Below, piece by piece: positions 45,424 through 53,299 of a stretch of 64,000 bases of DNA. The notes under the pieces were generated by a model. It saw nothing but the letters and a program-made list of their open reading frames with translations. It was not told where the DNA came from and searched no databases. The first letter of the stretch is position 1. Each line of letters opens with the position of its first letter. The DNA is from Rhodospirillales bacterium (GTDB taxonomy: Bacteria > Pseudomonadota > Alphaproteobacteria > Acetobacterales > Acetobacteraceae), in NCBI GenBank assembly GCA_025352665.1, contig JANXSM010000045.1:1-64000 (forward strand), given 5' to 3'. The translations under genes and the position numbers were made by a program.

Positions 45424-45525
45424 CGCGTGATCGCTTCAGGTAGGCGAAGCGGTCAGGCTCTAGTCTTTTGTTTTAACAAGAAATTTTATCGCTCGTTTGA
45501 TTCAACCCCAGGCGATATTGCCCTA
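45421..45525 (-). repeat. Two-hairpin repeat, full copy B (tail to tail with A)
   Basis: Read on the minus strand it begins TAGGGCAATATCGCCTGGGG, where TAG is the amidase stop. It continues through GTTGAATCAAACGAGCG and GTTAAAACAAAAG, and ends with a CTAGAGCCTGACCGCTTCG palindrome. It overlaps copy A at its tail and is closest to copy C at 53297. Confidence 0.82.
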
Positions 45526-46910
45526 ACCCAGATCCGCCACGGCGAAGGGCTGGGCGAGTTCAAGGCTGCGGGCGGCGCGCAGCACCAGGTCGTCGCGGTA
45601 TTGGCTGGCGGCGATTTGCACGCTGCGCGGCAGGCCTTCCTGGGTGAAGCCCATGGGCACGGTGATGGCGGGCCCGCGTGTGAGGTTGAAGGCGAAGGTC
45701 CACGGCGCCCAGGCGGTCCACAGCGATTGCACCGGGTCGACCGTCGGTGCGTCTGCGAGCGGCGGTGGGCCGGGCACGGTCGGGCACAGCACCAGGTCGT
45801 AACGGGCGTGGAACCGCGCCATGGCGTTGGCTGCGGCCAGGCGCATCGCGTCCGCTTCCATATAATCGAGGGCGGAGGCGCCGGCTGCGTGCTCGGCTAC
45901 CTCCACGATGCCGTGGTCGAGCATGTGCCGGCGACTTTCGGGTATTCCGGCCACCACTTTCGACAGGGCGGCACCCCAGATGCGGCCGAAGATTTCGCGT
46001 ACATCGGGCAGATCGGCCTCGGCCTCCTCCACCTCGGCGCCGGCCTCCAGCAGTAGATGGGCGGCCTGTTCAACGGCGGCGATCCCTTCCCAGTCGACCG
46101 GCGCATCGAACCCCGGCCGGCGCAGCAACGCCACCCGTAGCCCGGCGACGCCGTATTCCAGCCCCGCCGTCCAGTCGCGGGGGTCGTCGGGCAGGCACAG
46201 CGGGTCGCGCCGATCGTGGCGGGCGAGGGCTGAGAACATCAGCGCCGTGTCGCGCACCGTGCGTGCCATCGGTCCTGCCACAGCCACAGAGGCGAAGGCG
46301 CCGAGTGGCCATTGCGGCACGCGGCCGAAGCTCGGCTTCAGCCCGACACGCCGCACCAGGCCGCGGGAATGCGGATCGACCCGCCGGCGTCGGTGCCGAT
46401 ATGCAAGGGCCCGAAGCACGCCGCCGCCGCCGCTCCGGCGCCCGCGCTGGAACCGCCGGTGGTGTGCAGCCGGTTCCATGGATTGCGGGTGATGCCATGC
46501 AGTGGGCAGTCGCCCGTAGATTTCCAACCGTATTCCGTGGTGGTGGTCTTGCTGATGATGACGGCGCCGGCCGCCTTCAGGCCCACCACGGTGGGCGCGT
46601 CCTCGCTGACCGGCGCCGGATCGGTCAGCCGGCTGCCACGGCGGGTGGGAAAGCCTGCGATGTCGATCAGGTCCTTCACCGTCACCGGCACGCCGTCGAG
46701 CGGGCCGAGCGGTCGGCCGGTCCGCCAGCGCGATGCACTTTCGCCGGCGGCGGCCAGAGCGTGCGGATTCATCACGGCAAACGCGTTCACCTGGCCGTTG
46801 AGTCGGGCGATCCGTGAAATCACCGCCTGCAGCGCCTCCGTCGGGCTCAGCGTGCCGCGGGCATAGAGGGTCAGCAGATCATCGGCGGTCATCAACGCGG
46901 GATCGGTCAT
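45523..46910 (-). pseudogene. Amidase with single-base frameshift
   Basis: The first part (ATG 46910, GGAAGAGCC ribosome site) encodes a normal amidase N-terminus: the catalytic Lys in VTVKDLIDIAGF, and the signature region TTGGSSAGAGAAAA. It then reads GTDAGGSIRIPAAWCGVSG and hits TGA at 46340-46338. The second frame resumes with LKPSFGRVPQW and runs to TAG at 45525. Adding one C (GGCCTGAAG for GGCTGAAG) at about 46341 restores the expected GVSGLKPSFGRVP. This is a one-base deletion, either real inactivation or a sequence error. The C-terminal half is otherwise intact (about 460 residues total). Confidence 0.85.
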
Positions 46911-46973
46911 CGGCTCTTCCTGCAGGAGGCGGGTTGGGCCACCATGCTGCCGACACGCGATGGAGGAAAGCCC

Positions 46974-47879
46974 GTGGATCACGCATCACAGCCCTGGCAA
47001 TGGCCTGAACCGACCTGGCGCGCCATGGTCGAACGCGCAAGAGCGGGCCGCTCGCTGCGCCCCACCGCCTGGCCGGGGGGCGCTGTGTGCGCGGTTTCCC
47101 TGTCGTTCGACGCCGACCACGAAACCATCCCGCTGCGGGACGGCGACGAAAGCCCGATGCGCATCAGCCAGGGCCAGTTCGGCGCCCGCAGCGGCATGCC
47201 GCGCATACGCGCCCTGCTGGAACGCCACCAGATCCACGCAAGCTTCTTCTACCCCGCGGTCTCGGCCCTGCTGCATCCCGACGAAGTGCGCGGCGTGGCC
47301 GCAGAGGGCCATGAGATCGGCATCCACTCCTGGATCCACGAGCTGAACACCAAGCTCGACCACGCGACCGAGCGCGACCTGTCGTTCCGCGCCGCGGACG
47401 TGCTGGCCAAGCTGTCCGGCCGCGTGCCGGTGGGCATGCGCACGGCCAGCTGGGATTTTTCGCCCCACACGCTGAGCATCATCCGCGAAATGGGCCTGCT
47501 CTACGACAGTTCGCTGATGGCCGATGACGACCCCTACGAAATCACTGATGGCGGCGAGCCTACAGGTGTCGTGGAACTGCCGCCGGAATGGATCCGCGAC
47601 GACGCGCCCTATTTCGGCTTCCAGCGCCACAGCGCCATTCGCCCCCACACGACCCCGAACGGTGTGGAGGAAATCTTCCGCGGCGAGTTTGACGGCGCCT
47701 ACCAGGAGGGCGGCCTGTTCCTGCTCACCATGCACCCGCACATCACCGGCCACCGCAGCCGCATTGCCATGCTGGACCGGCTGATTTCTTACATGAAGGC
47801 CCAGCCCAAAGTGTGGTTCGCAACCCATGAACAAGTCGTCAAATGGTGCTGGGAAAACGCCGCTGTCCCGGCCGGGTAG
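46974..47879 (+). CDS. Polysaccharide deacetylase family protein
   Basis: The 301-residue protein has the deacetylase metal motif in CAVSLSFDADHETI near residue 35 and the His pair in EIGIHSWIHELNTKLDH near 118. RTASWDFSPHTL follows near 155, and a late His is in FLLTMHPHITGHRS near 248. The family deacetylates N-acetyl sugars, or cleaves amide/allantoin-type C-N bonds in the PuuE branch. GTG 46974 is preferred because GGAGGAAAG lies 6 bases upstream; ATG 46944 is possible. It is divergent from the amidase by 63 bases, which fits a shared amide substrate. Confidence 0.87.
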   Translation: MDHASQPWQWPEPTWRAMVERARAGRSLRPTAWPGGAVCAVSLSFDADHETIPLRDGDESPMRISQGQFGARSGMPRIRALLERHQIHASFFYPAVSALLHPDEVRGVAAEGHEIGIHSWIHELNTKLDHATERDLSFRAADVLAKLSGRVPVGMRTASWDFSPHTLSIIREMGLLYDSSLMADDDPYEITDGGEPTGVVELPPEWIRDDAPYFGFQRHSAIRPHTTPNGVEEIFRGEFDGAYQEGGLFLLTMHPHITGHRSRIAMLDRLISYMKAQPKVWFATHEQVVKWCWENAAVPAG

Positions 47880-47915: not shown

Positions 47916-50906
47916 TCATGCGTGGGCCGGGATGGTGAAGTGGACCGTGATTGGCGTCATCAGGCTGGCCTGGGCTGTGACGGGTGTGCCGTCGAAGCTC
48001 AGGCTTTTCACGTAGAGGTTTCGGTCCAGCGCTGCGGTGCCGCCCCAGGCGTCGTTGAGGAACGACATCGCCACATCGTGCGATACCCCGGTGCCACCGA
48101 AGCTGCCGGCAAAGCTGAACAACTCGGCGGTCCCGCCTGAATTCAGAAAGGTCACTGTCGGGCTGCCGACGACCAGGTTGTCGATCGAGATCTGTGCCTG
48201 GGCATCGCCCTGGTATGCATCCTCGGTGAGACCCACCACGAGTTTGTCCGGCCCGGTGGCAGGCGTCGAGACAGTTTGCGTGCCGGAACTCATGAGGGCC
48301 ACGGCGCTGTTGGGGGTGACGGCGCCGTTGTAGGTGATGCCGGTGAGATAGAGGTTGCGGTCCATCGTGGAGGTGCCGCCGTAGGCGTCGTTGAGGAAAT
48401 CGATCGTCTCGGTATGCGCGCCCGGGCCGAAACTGCCAGCGACCGCGAATGTCTGCGTCTGTCCGGCGTTGTGGATGGCGGTGGTGGTCTGGGTGCCGCC
48501 CTGCTGCACTCCATCGACCTCAAGTGTGAATTGCGCGTCGCCATTCCAGGCGTCTTCATTGACTGTGAACAGGAATACATCGGGGCCGCTGCCGATCTGG
48601 ATGACGGGCGGACCGGTTGGCACCGGGACTGGGGTCGGCACAGGGGCGGGCGCGGGTGTGGGAACCGGTGCTGGCGCGGGGACCGGCACCGGCGTGGGGG
48701 TCGGGGCCGGAGCGGGCACGGGGGTCGGCACTGGAGCCGGCGTGGGCGTGGGCGCAGCCGCCGCAGTGAAGGCGAAGCTCTGGGTGCCGCCGGCATACTC
48801 GTTCAGCACCGCCTGTGGCAGCACTGTGCCATCGATCGACCCGCCGACGACGAACAGGTTCCGATCGCCGGTGGGCCCATCGCCGTTGTTGAGGAAGTCG
48901 ACGGCCACCGTATGCACGGTGGTGCCAAAATTGCCCCGGAAGGTGAAGCTCTGCGTCTGTCCCAGACCATGGCTGGCGGTGGCGGTGAAAACCCCGCCTT
49001 GCGGCGCTCCATCAATGGCAACGCTGAACTGCGCATTAACTCCCTGGTACGAATCTTCCGAAACGCTGAGCAGTAGCGTGTCCGATCCAGTGCCGGTGGT
49101 CACGGTTCCCGGCGGAACCGGTGCGGGTGTCGGCGTGGGCAGCGGCGCTGGGGCGGGGCTTGGCACGGGAACCGGCACCGGGGTGGGCGTAGGCGCGGGA
49201 GCCGGGGCGGGGACGGGTGCCGGGGTCGGCACGGGAACCGGCACCGGGGTGGGCGTAGGCGCGGGAGCCGGGGTGGGGACGGGAGCCGGGGTCGGCACGG
49301 GCACCGGCACCGGCACGGGTGCTGGCGTCGGTGCCGGCGCGGGCGCCGGGCTGGCAGTGCCGGGACCCGTAAATGTGAAGCTCTGCGCACCGCCGGCGTA
49401 TTCGTTTAGAACCGCTCCGGGGATCACCACGCCGTCGATCGCGCCTGACACCACGAACAGGTTGCGATCGCCATCCGGGCCGTCGCCGTTGTTGAGGAAA
49501 TCCACCGTCACGGTATGGGCGGTGGTACCAAAATTCCCGTTCACGGTGAACGCCTGCGTCTTGCCGCTCGCCCGAGTGGCCGTGGCCGCCAGCAGCCCGC
49601 CCTGCGGCATGCCGTCGACCAGAATGGTGAACTGCGCATCCACGCCCTGGTAGGAATCCTCGGCGATATTGAGCAGCAGGGCATCCGGCCCGGTGCCGAC
49701 GGTAACCGGCCCGCCATTCGCCACATTGCCTGAGGGCGGAGAGACTGTAGCAACCGTGCCGGTAAAGGTGAAGCTCTGTGCGCCCCCGGCATACTCGTTC
49801 AGCGTCGACCCCAGGATGGCGGCGCCGTCGATCGTGGCGTTGGTGACGTAGAGATTGCGATCGCCGGTCGACCCGCTGTCGTTGTTGATGAAGTTCACCG
49901 CGACCGTATGGGCTGCCGTTCCGAACACCCCGTTGATAGTGAACGCCTGGTTCTGGCCATGCGAGTGGTCCGCCTGGGCGGTCTGCGCACCGCCCTGCTG
50001 CACGCCATCGATGGTGACGATGAACTGTGCATCGGTCGAAAGGTAGGAATCCTCCGATATGTTGAGGATCAGGCTATCGCTGCCGCTGCCGATCACTGGC
50101 GGCGTGGGCACCGGCGGCAGCGACAGCACGGGCAATGTGTTGACGCCGTCGGGTGAGGAGATCGCCTTCTGCACCACGGCCGGGATGGCGGCGTTGTTCG
50201 AATAGGCGCGGATATAGTCGATGCTGTAGCTCGACGATGCACCCGCGGCCGGCTGTCCCGGCCAGCTTCCGGCCCCGCCCACGGCGAGATCCGCAAGCAT
50301 GTACATCTGCGCCGCGGCCAGGGCAGGCGGTGTAACGTCGGCGGTTCCGATCAGTTGGCCGTCAAACACATATTGAATAGCGCTTGCAGTCCACAGGAAC
50401 CCATAGGTGTGATAGCCGGAATATAGATTGGTGCCGGTATCGGTGAAGCCGCCGCTGCTGTCGGTTGGCGTGCTGGTGTGGGTCCAATACTGGCTGATGC
50501 TGCCGGTGGTGTTCGGCTGCTCAAGAATGTCGATCTCGGGATAACCCTGGCCCACTGGCAACATCCAGAACGCGGGCCAGAATCCGCGCGACATCGGCAT
50601 AGCCGCACGGATTTCAAAATAACCCTGGTTCTGCGTGAAGCTGTTCGATGTCTGCAGCAGGCCCGAAGTATATGGTAGCCCTCCAGACGGCGTCGGAGTC
50701 GCCGTGATGGTCAGCGCGCCGCTGACGATTGTGAAGGGGCTGCCAGCTGTGCCCACGGGGGTGGAGACATAGTTCTCCGCCTCATGGTTTGTTGGGATTG
50801 TTGTGGCCCCATTGGCGAAACTATTGTTGAATATGCCCATATCGGTGGCGCTGGTGAACTCGTCATCAAATGTTAAATGGTAGCCGATCAAATCGAGCTT
50901 CGTCAT
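47916..50906 (-). CDS. GH16-like glycoside hydrolase with five carbohydrate-binding repeats
   Basis: The 996-residue protein has a GH16-like catalytic domain (about 8-238) with the signature EIDILE at 124-129 (Glu124 and Glu129) and FWPAFWMLPVG just before. Five related modules follow at roughly 272-383, 395-505, 600-710, 770-880 and 883-990. Each has EDSYQGVDAQF-like and DRNLYV-like blocks of the calcium-dependent xylan-binding-type module. Two are separated by Pro/Ala/Thr/Val linkers (PVPVPTPAPVPAPAPAPTP). The family cleaves beta-1,3/1,4-glucans, agars or related polymers. No classical signal peptide is seen. The start ATG follows AAGGAATCGCCTAC, almost the same site as in the divergent GH26 gene. 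Confidence 0.88.
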   Translation of the reverse strand: MTKLDLIGYHLTFDDEFTSATDMGIFNNSFANGATTIPTNHEAENYVSTPVGTAGSPFTIVSGALTITATPTPSGGLPYTSGLLQTSNSFTQNQGYFEIRAAMPMSRGFWPAFWMLPVGQGYPEIDILEQPNTTGSISQYWTHTSTPTDSSGGFTDTGTNLYSGYHTYGFLWTASAIQYVFDGQLIGTADVTPPALAAAQMYMLADLAVGGAGSWPGQPAAGASSSYSIDYIRAYSNNAAIPAVVQKAISSPDGVNTLPVLSLPPVPTPPVIGSGSDSLILNISEDSYLSTDAQFIVTIDGVQQGGAQTAQADHSHGQNQAFTINGVFGTAAHTVAVNFINNDSGSTGDRNLYVTNATIDGAAILGSTLNEYAGGAQSFTFTGTVATVSPPSGNVANGGPVTVGTGPDALLLNIAEDSYQGVDAQFTILVDGMPQGGLLAATATRASGKTQAFTVNGNFGTTAHTVTVDFLNNGDGPDGDRNLFVVSGAIDGVVIPGAVLNEYAGGAQSFTFTGPGTASPAPAPAPTPAPVPVPVPVPTPAPVPTPAPAPTPTPVPVPVPTPAPVPAPAPAPTPTPVPVPVPSPAPAPLPTPTPAPVPPGTVTTGTGSDTLLLSVSEDSYQGVNAQFSVAIDGAPQGGVFTATASHGLGQTQSFTFRGNFGTTVHTVAVDFLNNGDGPTGDRNLFVVGGSIDGTVLPQAVLNEYAGGTQSFAFTAAAAPTPTPAPVPTPVPAPAPTPTPVPVPAPAPVPTPAPAPVPTPVPVPTGPPVIQIGSGPDVFLFTVNEDAWNGDAQFTLEVDGVQQGGTQTTTAIHNAGQTQTFAVAGSFGPGAHTETIDFLNDAYGGTSTMDRNLYLTGITYNGAVTPNSAVALMSSGTQTVSTPATGPDKLVVGLTEDAYQGDAQAQISIDNLVVGSPTVTFLNSGGTAELFSFAGSFGGTGVSHDVAMSFLNDAWGGTAALDRNLYVKSLSFDGTPVTAQASLMTPITVHFTIPAHA
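49162..49293. repeat. 66-bp tandem repeat encoding the Pro-rich linker
   Basis: A 66-bp unit starting GGCACGGGAACCGGCACCGG at 49162 repeats at 49228, nearly identical. On the minus strand it encodes a 22-residue Pro/Val/Ala/Thr linker between modules 2 and 3 of the GH16-like enzyme. Length changes here would alter linker length. Confidence 0.8.
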
Positions 50907-51472
50907 GTAGGCGATTCCTTATGGCGTGCTTGCCAACCAGCGCTGTCGCACGCGTTTTTTTCTTAATTCGGTGTCAAGGCAAGTCACTTATACTGGAGGC
51001 TGCCAATCGGGCCGATGTCTTTCCCCAAATCGAAATGGGGCAGCGCCAAAAGCCATGCTTGCTGATCGAACAGCAGGCGGAGCGGATCGCCTGACCATCC
51101 TGTCGTCGGAGACTCCCAACATGACTGTAAACAGATTCGTCATGCCTATCATTTGATAAATATCTTTCAGAATAGGTTAGGGTTCCTAAGATAACTCCTG
51201 CTCTTGGATAAAATAACACAAAAATATCCGAAACATTGACGATATGAGATATGAGGACTTCCGCATTAGATAACGTAGATGATAGTCCAATTAGGAACGT
51301 TCTACATTGGTTTTGGAGATGCAGAGAAACAATCACAGTGTGAATGAACAATTTGAATTATTATATGATCTGAAATATCTTAATTCAGTTCATCAAATCC
51401 AGCACCGACCCTCAAATCCGGCAGAAAGTCTTTAGTCTGCCCGATTTCTAAGTAATCAAGAAGGAATCTTCC
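50907..51472. promoter_or_regulatory. AT-rich divergent promoter region between GH16 and GH26 genes
   Basis: This 566-base gap is the most AT-rich part of the window, especially 51120-51440. It separates two divergent secreted-enzyme genes and should hold both promoters and regulator sites. A short GGCAGA/TCTGCC inverted repeat (about 51420-51441) lies near the GH26 start. Apparent frames here (one of 125 codons on the minus strand) have Cys/Ser-rich, unfamiliar content and I do not call them genes. The composition contrasts with neighbours and could reflect acquisition or an H-NS-type silenced region. Confidence 0.55.
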
Positions 51473-53299
51473 ATGTCCACCAATTCGGCATTCCCGCTGG
51501 GCGTGTTCGTCGGCGGCCCGAACGGCAGCGATTCCTACGCCCAGTCGTTGGTCACCAGCGAGTTCAACAGCTTCGTGCAGACCATGGGCACATCCCCGCA
51601 GTTCATGGATGGGTATGTCGACCAGGGCCAGTCGATCAACCAGTGGGCCAGCAATGCGAGTTGGACCGCATGGTCCTGGGCCAGCATGCCAGGCGCCAGC
51701 GGAACAACGCCGGTGATCGGCCTGCCAATGGCAACCGATGGCGACTACGGCAATCCGGACGCGGTGTTCAGGGATTTCGCCTCGGGCAAATACGACAACG
51801 TGCTGCAGAACCTGGTTCAGGCCTGGTCAGACCAGGGGTTCAAAACGCAGTATTGGCGACCTGGCTACGAAATGAACGTCTCGTCCATGCCCTGGTATGT
51901 CGGCGACAACGCCCAAACCCAGGCGGACTACATCAGCGCCTTCCAGCACATCTCAGGCGTGCTCCATCACGCCGGCAATGCCACGGGCGTCGACGTCAAG
52001 GTTGTATGGAGCCCGAACATCATGAACTGGAACAACGACATCAACGTGATGAGCCTTTATCCGGGGAACTCGGCGGTCGATGTGATGGGTCCCGATCAAT
52101 ACGACAACATGTATCCGCGCGATCTGTACGATTGGGCCAAGAACAACGGGACTGTGGACAGCAGCTTCCAGCAATGGGCGTCCAACCCCATCAACGTGGA
52201 GCACTATTTCACCTATCCTTCGGGCAGCCAGTGGCACCCCACCGGCGACGGTCAGGGCAATGGCCAAAGCCTGAAGCAGTTCATCGACTTCGCAAAGGCG
52301 AACGGCAAGTCGATCGCCATGTCCGAAACCGGCGCCGGCGGCGGTGGCAACACCGACACCTGGGAGGATCCAGCCTTCGTTCAGTGGCTGGCCAACACGC
52401 TGCGGAACGCGGGCGTTCCCATCAGCTACGTCAATCTGTGGGACACCAACGCCAACGGCTCATGGGATTTCTCATCGGGCAGCGCCGGCAAGCCACTGAC
52501 CGCCGCCGCCTGGCGCCAGTATTTCGGGGTCGGCTCGGGATCGACCAGTGCCCCCGCCCCCGCCCCCGCGCCAATTCCTGCTCCTATGCCTTCACCCACC
52601 CCCTCGACCGCCCCGGCGGCCAGTACGGCCACCTCGACGGCCGCGGCAGGAACGATCGTCGTGAACCTGTCGGAGGAAGCCTGGCAAGGCGACGCGCAGG
52701 TGAACCTCAGTGTCAACGGACAGCAGATCGGCTGGTCGCAGACCATCACCGCCAATCATGACGCGGGCCAAAGCCAGTCCGTCACGCTGCAGGGCAGTTT
52801 CAACACCAGCGGCCAGAACGTGGTGACGGTGAATTTCCTCAACGACGCCTGGGGCGGCACCGCGCAGACCGACCGCAACGTCTTTGTCGACAGCATCACC
52901 GTGGGCAACCAGACGGTGCAGACCAATGCAGCCCTCTATTCCGCGGGACCGCAGGACTTCACCGTGCCGGCTGCGTCGATCTCATCGTCGTCGAACATGG
53001 CTTTCGCCCTGCCGCAGACGGTGCAACTCGCCACAGGCGACGCCAGCCTGACCGCGGTAGCCTCGGAAACGCTCGACTTCACTGGTGTCGGTTATGGCAA
53101 CGACACGATTGCAGGCTTTGATCCATCGACGGATGTTCTGAAGATCAGCCGGATGCTGGCGCCGGATTTCGCGGCGATCCAGAACGACCTGCAATCCAGC
53201 GGCGGCAATACCGTCATCACACTCGGCAGCAGCCACTCGATCACGTTGCAGGGCATGGTGCCGCAGGCCCTGACAGCGTCAAATTTCGCTTTTGCCTAG
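51473..53299 (+). CDS. GH26-like glycoside hydrolase with CBM and type I secretion tail
   Basis: The 608-residue protein has a (beta/alpha)8 hydrolase domain (about 1-345). Acid/base Glu133 is in YWRPGYEMN and nucleophile Glu285 in IAMSETGAGG. GH26 enzymes usually have His before the first Glu; here it is Tyr. An Ala/Pro linker (about 355-390) precedes one carbohydrate-binding module (about 393-500, EEAWQGDAQV and DRNVFV). The last 85 residues (GVGYGNDTIAGFDPSTDVLK) resemble a type I secretion C-terminal signal. Mannan or mixed-linkage glucan cleavage is likely. The TAG stop is the first codon of repeat copy C. Confidence 0.83.
   Translation: MSTNSAFPLGVFVGGPNGSDSYAQSLVTSEFNSFVQTMGTSPQFMDGYVDQGQSINQWASNASWTAWSWASMPGASGTTPVIGLPMATDGDYGNPDAVFRDFASGKYDNVLQNLVQAWSDQGFKTQYWRPGYEMNVSSMPWYVGDNAQTQADYISAFQHISGVLHHAGNATGVDVKVVWSPNIMNWNNDINVMSLYPGNSAVDVMGPDQYDNMYPRDLYDWAKNNGTVDSSFQQWASNPINVEHYFTYPSGSQWHPTGDGQGNGQSLKQFIDFAKANGKSIAMSETGAGGGGNTDTWEDPAFVQWLANTLRNAGVPISYVNLWDTNANGSWDFSSGSAGKPLTAAAWRQYFGVGSGSTSAPAPAPAPIPAPMPSPTPSTAPAASTATSTAAAGTIVVNLSEEAWQGDAQVNLSVNGQQIGWSQTITANHDAGQSQSVTLQGSFNTSGQNVVTVNFLNDAWGGTAQTDRNVFVDSITVGNQTVQTNAALYSAGPQDFTVPAASISSSSNMAFALPQTVQLATGDASLTAVASETLDFTGVGYGNDTIAGFDPSTDVLKISRMLAPDFAAIQNDLQSSGGNTVITLGSSHSITLQGMVPQALTASNFAFA

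Follow-up and report, generated by a model that had tools for sequence, protein, structure and literature searches.

A divergent pair of glycanase genes

The window analysed here is a stretch of 64,000 nucleotides of contig JANXSM010000045.1 from a Rhodospirillales bacterium of the family Acetobacteraceae. Two genes for multi-domain glycanases lie back to back in it, one for an enzyme of glycoside hydrolase family 16 (GH16) and one for a GH26-type enzyme; both proteins carry carbohydrate-binding modules of family 60 (CBM60). Both open reading frames (ORFs) lie where the preliminary description of the sequence had placed them, with five modules in the first and one in the second.

47916..50906, minus strand: GH16 enzyme, 996 aa, with an N-terminal catalytic domain, five CBM60, two Pro/Thr-rich linkers and no signal peptide
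50907..51472, strand-neutral: A+T-rich intergenic region between the divergent genes
51473..53299, plus strand: GH26-type enzyme, 608 aa, without signal peptide

The GH16 enzyme

50187..50906, minus strand: GH16 catalytic domain, residues 1-240 (PF00722 at residues 64-232; EglC model; laminarinase-type PDB matches)
50520..50537, minus strand: GH16 catalytic signature EIDILE (E-x-D-x-x-E), read in the sequence

The GH16-like character proposed earlier is borne out by a hidden Markov model (HMM) search: PF00722 matches with 53.2 bits against a cut-off of 22 (E 3.3e-14). The E-x-D-x(x)-E motif is present as EIDILE, which we take to be of the beta-bulge type. The closest NCBIfam model is EglC, an endo-1,3-1,4-beta-glycanase, of which positions 217-457 align with residues 9-236. 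At 135.8 bits the enzyme falls outside the EglC equivalog (NF052454), for which the curated cut-off is 700. It shares a GH16 domain with the rhizobial EglC/ExsH/PlyA-PlyB glycanases; the window enzyme has its CBM60 array behind the catalytic domain, whereas in the EglC model this domain is preceded by another region.

The same genome encodes a GH16 paralogue on contig C113 (L009:8341-11124, plus strand), which also has five CBM60, is 43% identical in the catalytic domain and ends in HHFTVLVPNS. About 1.4 kb upstream of it there is an acyltransferase-3 gene. In a congener (L215, G164:C288) two GH16-CBM60 genes are found in tandem; the two of the window genome are on separate contigs.

CBM60 modules

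49779..50081, minus strand: CBM60 copy 1 of the GH16 enzyme, shortened loop before DRN
49386..49688, minus strand: CBM60 copy 2 of the GH16 enzyme, shortened loop NNGDG..DRN
48783..49085, minus strand: CBM60 copy 3 of the GH16 enzyme, shortened loop
48282..48584, minus strand: CBM60 copy 4 of the GH16 enzyme, loop NDAYGG..DRN
47919..48251, minus strand: CBM60 copy 5 of the GH16 enzyme, C-terminal, modelled with a mean predicted local distance difference test (pLDDT) of 90.0, last strand at residues 102-107 of 111
52646..52972, plus strand: CBM60 of the GH26-type enzyme

Pfam PF16841 (CBM60) is found over cut-off in five stretches of the GH16 enzyme (1.1e-44) and in one of the GH26-type enzyme (5.2e-15). 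The fold was compared for one module, the last GH16 copy; its model matches vCBM60 (2xfd) with Z 12.3 and a root-mean-square deviation (rmsd) of 1.7 over 89 residues, and the first non-CBM60 row has Z 8.0. By PF16841 and by this fold, the "calcium-type" carbohydrate-binding module of the preliminary description is CBM60, present in both proteins.

All nine aligned copies, six of which are from the window, have the same residues at the E, N, G and DRN positions. The loop before DRN reads NNDSG or NNGDG in GH16 copies 1-3; in copies 4-5, the GH26 copy and three copies from the C113 paralogue it reads NDAYGG, NDAWGG or NDLYGG. Binding by the short-loop copies may therefore differ from that of the long-loop copies, to judge from their sequences. 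CBM60 is said, in an excerpt of PMC4725902, to target beta-1,4-glucan and xylan and not mannan; an excerpt of PMC4444583 shows a CBM60 structure with cellobiose.

CBM60 occurs in at least 65 of the 249 genomes of the Acetobacteraceae-type family and in 5 of 397 other genomes of a phylum sample (which includes some family members). In this wider sample, a GH16 protein with two C-terminal CBM60 and no signal peptide is found in another family of the same class (G390). CBM60 lies inside RTX-repeat proteins in G447 and G464 and at the N-terminus in G518. A genome of another class (G433) is like the window genome in having PF16841 modules, in two proteins that are xylanase-type by eye (3.2e-9 and 5.0e-8). 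These differ in that both have Sec signal peptides by eye, and their modules are too divergent for an HMM built from the window's own copies.

Within the window genome, two further frames with CBM60 lie at contig ends (C47 and C123). One has CBM60 at the start of the frame (L011:17775-18797, plus strand); the other has two CBM60 at the end of the frame and an autotransporter-type repeat (L010:17770-19131, minus strand). They possibly belong to one large matrix or adhesin protein.

The GH26-type enzyme

51473..52540, plus strand: GH26-type catalytic domain, modelled with pLDDT 90.9
51869..51871, plus strand: Glu133, predicted acid/base (RPGYEMN; the usual preceding His is Tyr), invariant column
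52325..52327, plus strand: Glu285, predicted nucleophile (SETGAG), invariant column
52973..53296, plus strand: type I-secretion-like C-terminal tail ending in NFAFA, with weak matches

The catalytic domain has no credible Pfam or NCBIfam match, PF02156 (GH26) included, and a sequence search of the PDB with the catalytic part gave one weak match (0.0082). Of the 26 aligned relatives, 25 match PF02156 under an E limit of 1, the best at 1.9e-8. The earlier GH26-like assignment is thus recovered by HMM through the relatives and not in the window protein itself.

A profile of the 26-sequence alignment ranks CtLic26 (endoglucanase H), the GH26 lichenase of Clostridium thermocellum, first among PDB sequences (4.2e-12). 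The AlphaFold2 model has a (beta/alpha)8 fold, and its nearest solved structures are GH26 enzymes: CtLic26 (Z 23.6), the mixed-linkage xylanase AlXyn26A (Z 23.5) and a beta-1,3-xylanase (21.6). Mannanases score at or below 19.7, a value that belongs to B. subtilis YdhT. CtLic26 is the top match in Foldseek as well, where one row is a fusion carrying it.

The likeness to CtLic26 (2cip, 2bv9) extends over 268 residues with rmsd 3.2 and 22% identity. The window domain differs in being about 70-80 residues longer, in its appended CBM60 and secretion-like tail, and in the absence of the HE motif (His before the acid/base Glu), which CtLic26 has (RPLHEANG in the alignment). AlXyn26A (7xs3, 7xjr) is alike over 265 residues with rmsd 3.1, but is only 18% identical.

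R129, E133, D208, Y210, E285 and W323 are invariant in all 26 sequences. They match, by eye and not by superposition, the GH26 subsite -1/+1 list in an excerpt of PMC6556568: two catalytic Glu, Arg, Asp, Tyr and Trp. The HE motif of the GH26 beta-mannanase branches is found in none of the 26. A plain mannanase identity is rejected due to the absence of this motif, the lower Z of mannanases and the reported failure of CBM60 to bind mannan. From the sequence and the model we class the enzyme as GH26-type and outside the mannanase branches; lichenase and xylanase members form small branches in the tree of the same excerpt (PMC6556568). The enzyme and its relatives add a GH26 group without HE motif, nearest to the lichenase and xylanase members of the family.

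The 108-residue C-terminal tail has no Pfam match. Two weak resemblances were found, each scoring far short of the curated cut-off: one to the C-terminal end of PueAB (2.6e-5), a type I-secreted protein, the other to the part of EglC that precedes its GH16 domain (9.5e-4). In three other genomes (L071, L072 and L080 in G108, G017 and G206), GH26-type genes that lack signal peptides occur as tandem pairs, with type I-like ends NIAWV/SIAWV and KINWS/KVVWS.

Predicted function and substrate

The two enzymes are new representatives of families already known. We lean, with slightly better than even confidence, towards two separately built, signal-less extracellular endo-glycanases which act on 1,3/1,4-linked beta-glucan-type polymers and both leave the cell via the genome's type I exporter. 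The CBM60 modules would hold each enzyme on the polymer, and the GH16 or GH26 domain would cut it by a retaining two-glutamate mechanism. The GH26 enzyme would be exported by its RTX-like tail and the GH16 enzyme by its C-terminal end, a CBM60. Candidate substrates are lichenan and cereal or fungal mixed-linkage glucan; xylan is less likely.

The preliminary description had suggested that both enzymes serve one polysaccharide. A common class of substrate is plausible, with EglC nearest to the GH16 domain and lichenase and mixed-linkage xylanase nearest to the GH26-type domain; the dedicated divergent system that went with this suggestion is not supported (see below). Beta-1,3/1,4-glucan is the simplest common substrate, xylan is a plausible alternative and mannan is disfavoured. 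One homologue comes from a metagenome assembly of a lichen (L079), a setting that would supply lichenan; as a hint to the substrate this is suggestive only.

A different target would be the cell's own exopolysaccharide (EPS) or cellulose matrix, which the pair could remodel as rhizobial ExsH and PlyA/B trim EPS, with CBM60 tying the enzymes to self-made cellulose. We regard this as rather unlikely. The genome has two cellulose-synthase matches over the curated cut-off (898.5 and 793.4 bits), which makes a self-made cellulose anchor a real rival; neither enzyme, however, is of cellulase type. The nearest NCBIfam model of the GH16 domain is that of a rhizobial enzyme, and one of the genome's other CBM60 protein ends carries the autotransporter-type strand repeat, as a matrix protein might.

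Gene neighbourhoods point both ways on this question. A Bradyrhizobium relative (L075) lies about 1.4 kb from a sugar-transferase gene, and an excerpt of PMC13390465 places a GH26 gene within an EPS gene cluster of Actinoplanes missouriensis; distant Actinoplanes matches were also found here, at 22-28% identity. GH26 relatives elsewhere, however, sit among unrelated genes (neighbourhoods listed, mostly judged by eye). No gene for EPS synthesis or export is among the eight neighbouring ORFs scanned (40.5-56.3 kb of the window); the closest in kind are a polysaccharide-deacetylase-like gene and a GT20 gene. The FxVTxK motif, which an excerpt of PMC5567048 gives for the mixed-linkage synthase BgsA, is absent from a third cellulose-synthase-like match (C163); this match was rejected as the cell's own mixed-linkage-glucan synthase.

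Signal peptides and C-terminal ends

Neither enzyme has an N-terminal signal peptide, as is the case for type I cargo. The preliminary description had noted one type I-like tail and one protein without recognised export signal; this agrees with the weak PueAB/EglC matches of the GH26-type tail and with the signal-less GH16 enzyme. Signal-less type I cargo is reported for rhizobial Ply EPS glycanases in an excerpt of PMC2275737. Signal peptides were called throughout by home-made hydrophobicity rules and by eye, in two slightly different versions, one for relatives of the catalytic domains and one for a set of 101 CBM60 ORFs.

These 101 distinct complete ORFs come from the fetched loci, including 80 regions chosen among the matches listed; the scan of named genomes supplied L077 and both L094 ORFs. 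A clear Sec signal is absent from all 101. Four are flagged at a score of at least 1.8 (L149, L239, L198, L231) and were judged by eye to be ambiguous or to represent untranslated upstream sequence. The last CBM60 lies within 25 residues of the C-terminus in 49 ORFs; one of these stops inside its CBM60 (L257:351-1907) and the other 48 end just behind one. Another 46 have more than 60 residues behind the last CBM60, and 26 of the 46 fit a loose hydrophobic-end pattern (ADMLFA, SDFLFG). Hydrophobic ends of this kind resemble type I ends.

Among relatives of the catalytic domains, which are not independent of each other, a clear signal peptide is found in 0 of 29 with CBM60 (two ambiguous) versus 9 of 30 without (p 0.002). 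When the ambiguous L126 and L149 are counted as positive, the figures are 2 of 29 versus 9 of 30 (p 0.04). The count starts from 61 rows, less L159 (the same gene as L066) and L070 (cut at its CBM60). The rule found seven of the nine accepted signal peptides, and L074 and L082 were added by eye; it also flagged the CBM60-bearing L126 (1.82), counted as ambiguous. In the group without CBM60, L141, L143 and L153 are cut C-terminally and could carry one, and L147 and L150 have no upstream stop in the locus. By eye, most of the 21 relatives with neither CBM60 nor signal peptide show RTX-like repeats at the N-terminus or an end of type I-like character; in L139, L142 and L143 neither feature is clear.

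The CBM60 arrangement is also seen behind other domains. In one protein without signal peptide, a glucose/sorbosone dehydrogenase and a Calx-beta domain are followed by five CBM60, and the sequence ends in HDFAFA (L234:2479-6084); two others resemble it at their starts and ends (L241:4363-7959 and L242:1732-4575). C-terminal CBM60 without clear signal peptides are found in a CAP protein (L240:457-1944), a GH5 protein (L192:560-2110) and a beta-helix protein (L213:1213-2802). These data point to a large class of signal-less, often CBM60-ended proteins in Acetobacteraceae-type genomes. This class is the part that deserves follow-up; its untagged, module-ended design recurs across many related proteins and may reflect an as yet unstudied export mechanism for such enzymes.

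Export route

Both enzymes are probably exported, and the genome's type I exporter is the likely route. One HlyD-type fusion protein (C127) scores over the curated cut-off (316.4 versus 208.65 bits) and adjoins an ABC exporter gene. RTX-repeat matches are found in four reading frames of the genome. Regarding C-terminal signals, the GH26 tail is only weakly like the PueAB and EglC regions, and scans of the GH16 protein gave no such match.

We hypothesise that the terminal CBM60 is itself an export element. In its general form, which is tentative and on balance doubtful, CBM60 would serve type I secretion in this family in place of RTX, having been recruited as a C-terminal module for calcium-dependent export and folding. 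It would be passed out unfolded, fold on calcium outside and then serve as a sugar anchor; the module occurs behind GH16, GH26, GH5, CAP, beta-helix and PQQ-dehydrogenase domains alike. If CBM60 does drive export, one protein part would do two jobs, anchoring and secretion. No paper joining CBM60 with type I secretion, or type I secretion with Acetobacteraceae, was found in the open-access papers searched; such an absence is weak evidence.

Several points weigh against two type I-exported enzymes for 1,3/1,4-linked glucan. The case is made from sequences and models, and the activity of both enzymes is predicted. PDB neighbours of the GH16 domain are mostly laminarinases and beta-1,3-glucanases, and the Z scores of lichenase and mixed-linkage xylanase are tied for the GH26-type model. 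The N-termini of two CBM60-bearing GH16 relatives (L126, L149) are ambiguously hydrophobic. The ABC protein of the exporter does not reach the PrtD cut-off (291.6 versus 510.15), and six weaker HlyD-type matches fall below their cut-off, hence a second exporter is possible. A BLAST search with the C127 fusion protein (E 1e-8) found no similar gene in 95 CBM60 loci (about 780 kb). Finally, the last CBM60 strand of the GH16 enzyme is within the predicted fold and four residues follow it; any export signal would therefore lie within the domain.

The last two points would also suit export by lysis or by another signal-less route. CBM60 genes are not linked to type I fusion-protein genes, and the four free residues are unlike classical tails. 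This alternative concerns the route only, is compatible with any substrate and is considered unlikely: by eye, relatives of the same catalytic domains show RTX-like repeats at the N-terminus or RTX-like ends, and an exporter pair is present in the genome along with its RTX-repeat proteins.

Type I genes adjoining CBM60 genes were rejected, as no fusion-protein match occurs in the 95 loci. The C127 ABC protein has matches of a general kind in some of these loci; a partial ABC match at the edge of L241 (42% over 125 residues) was traced into L296, and no fusion-protein match at 1e-5 was found in L296-L298. Elsewhere in the window genome, a weak HlyD-type match (35 bits, below cut-off; C45:12248-12652) and an RTX-repeat frame of 3799 residues (C45:17176-20160) are about 5 kb apart; these may be part of a second exporter.

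Gene arrangement

The preliminary description had also proposed that the two genes form a dedicated divergent system for one complex polysaccharide, read from a common control region. The common spacer is real: 50907..51472 is 566 bp long and has 43% G+C compared to 65% for the window. So is the shared ribosome site: AAGGAATC precedes each start, at 50913-50920 (minus) and 51461-51468 (plus), and these are its only two copies on both strands of the window. However, about 0.7 chance copies are expected from the base composition of the window and AAGGA is an ordinary ribosome-site core; consequently, the sharing is weak evidence of a link. A sigma-70 promoter pair was rejected since the scan of the spacer found none (1.1 expected by shuffling), and an Rfam RNA was rejected since no match was found there up to E 1.

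GH26 homologues were searched in the 249 family genomes at E 1e-6, with some matches being only fragments; the gene is found in 15 of them. It is found in one of the eight genomes of the genus, and three of the other seven are less than 90% complete. Neighbourhoods were checked in loci of 30 of 32 GH26 matches and 30 of 48 GH16 matches, with flanks that mostly did not exceed about 1.5 kb. Leaving aside loci that overlap the window, no locus has divergent or adjacent GH16-CBM60 and GH26-CBM60 genes; the only other locus with both types of ORF (L112) has them without CBM60. The gene neighbourhood is thus not conserved in these loci, and a conserved divergent operon was rejected. No GH26 gene was found in the remaining seven genomes of the genus, so the back-to-back placement probably arose locally and recently.

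Some observations do favour a dedicated regulon. Besides the spacer and ribosome site, GH16 is present in 7 of the 15 GH26 genomes compared to 24 of 249 overall (Fisher 1e-4, uncorrected for relatedness), and a polysaccharide-deacetylase-like gene (46944-47879) converges on the GH16 gene, ending 36 bp from its stop codon. Against this, the arrangement is unique to the window among the fetched loci, the GH26 gene is rare in the genus, the sigma-70 scan gave no shared promoter, and no regulator or transporter is found in the eight neighbouring ORFs scanned. Such a regulon is therefore very unlikely. GH26, GH16 and CBM60 co-occur above chance across the 249 genomes, again uncorrected for relatedness; because the catalytic families do so, a shared lifestyle of the two is supported, while a shared operator is not.

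Among plasmid records, 12 match the GH26-type protein and none covers 80% of it; the best places of 10 of the 12 are on the CBM60 part only. Further along the window, an amidase gene (45523-46982, minus strand) is split across two frames, which cover positions 1-166 and 165-445 of the Pfam Amidase profile; it is either a frameshifted pseudogene or an assembly error.

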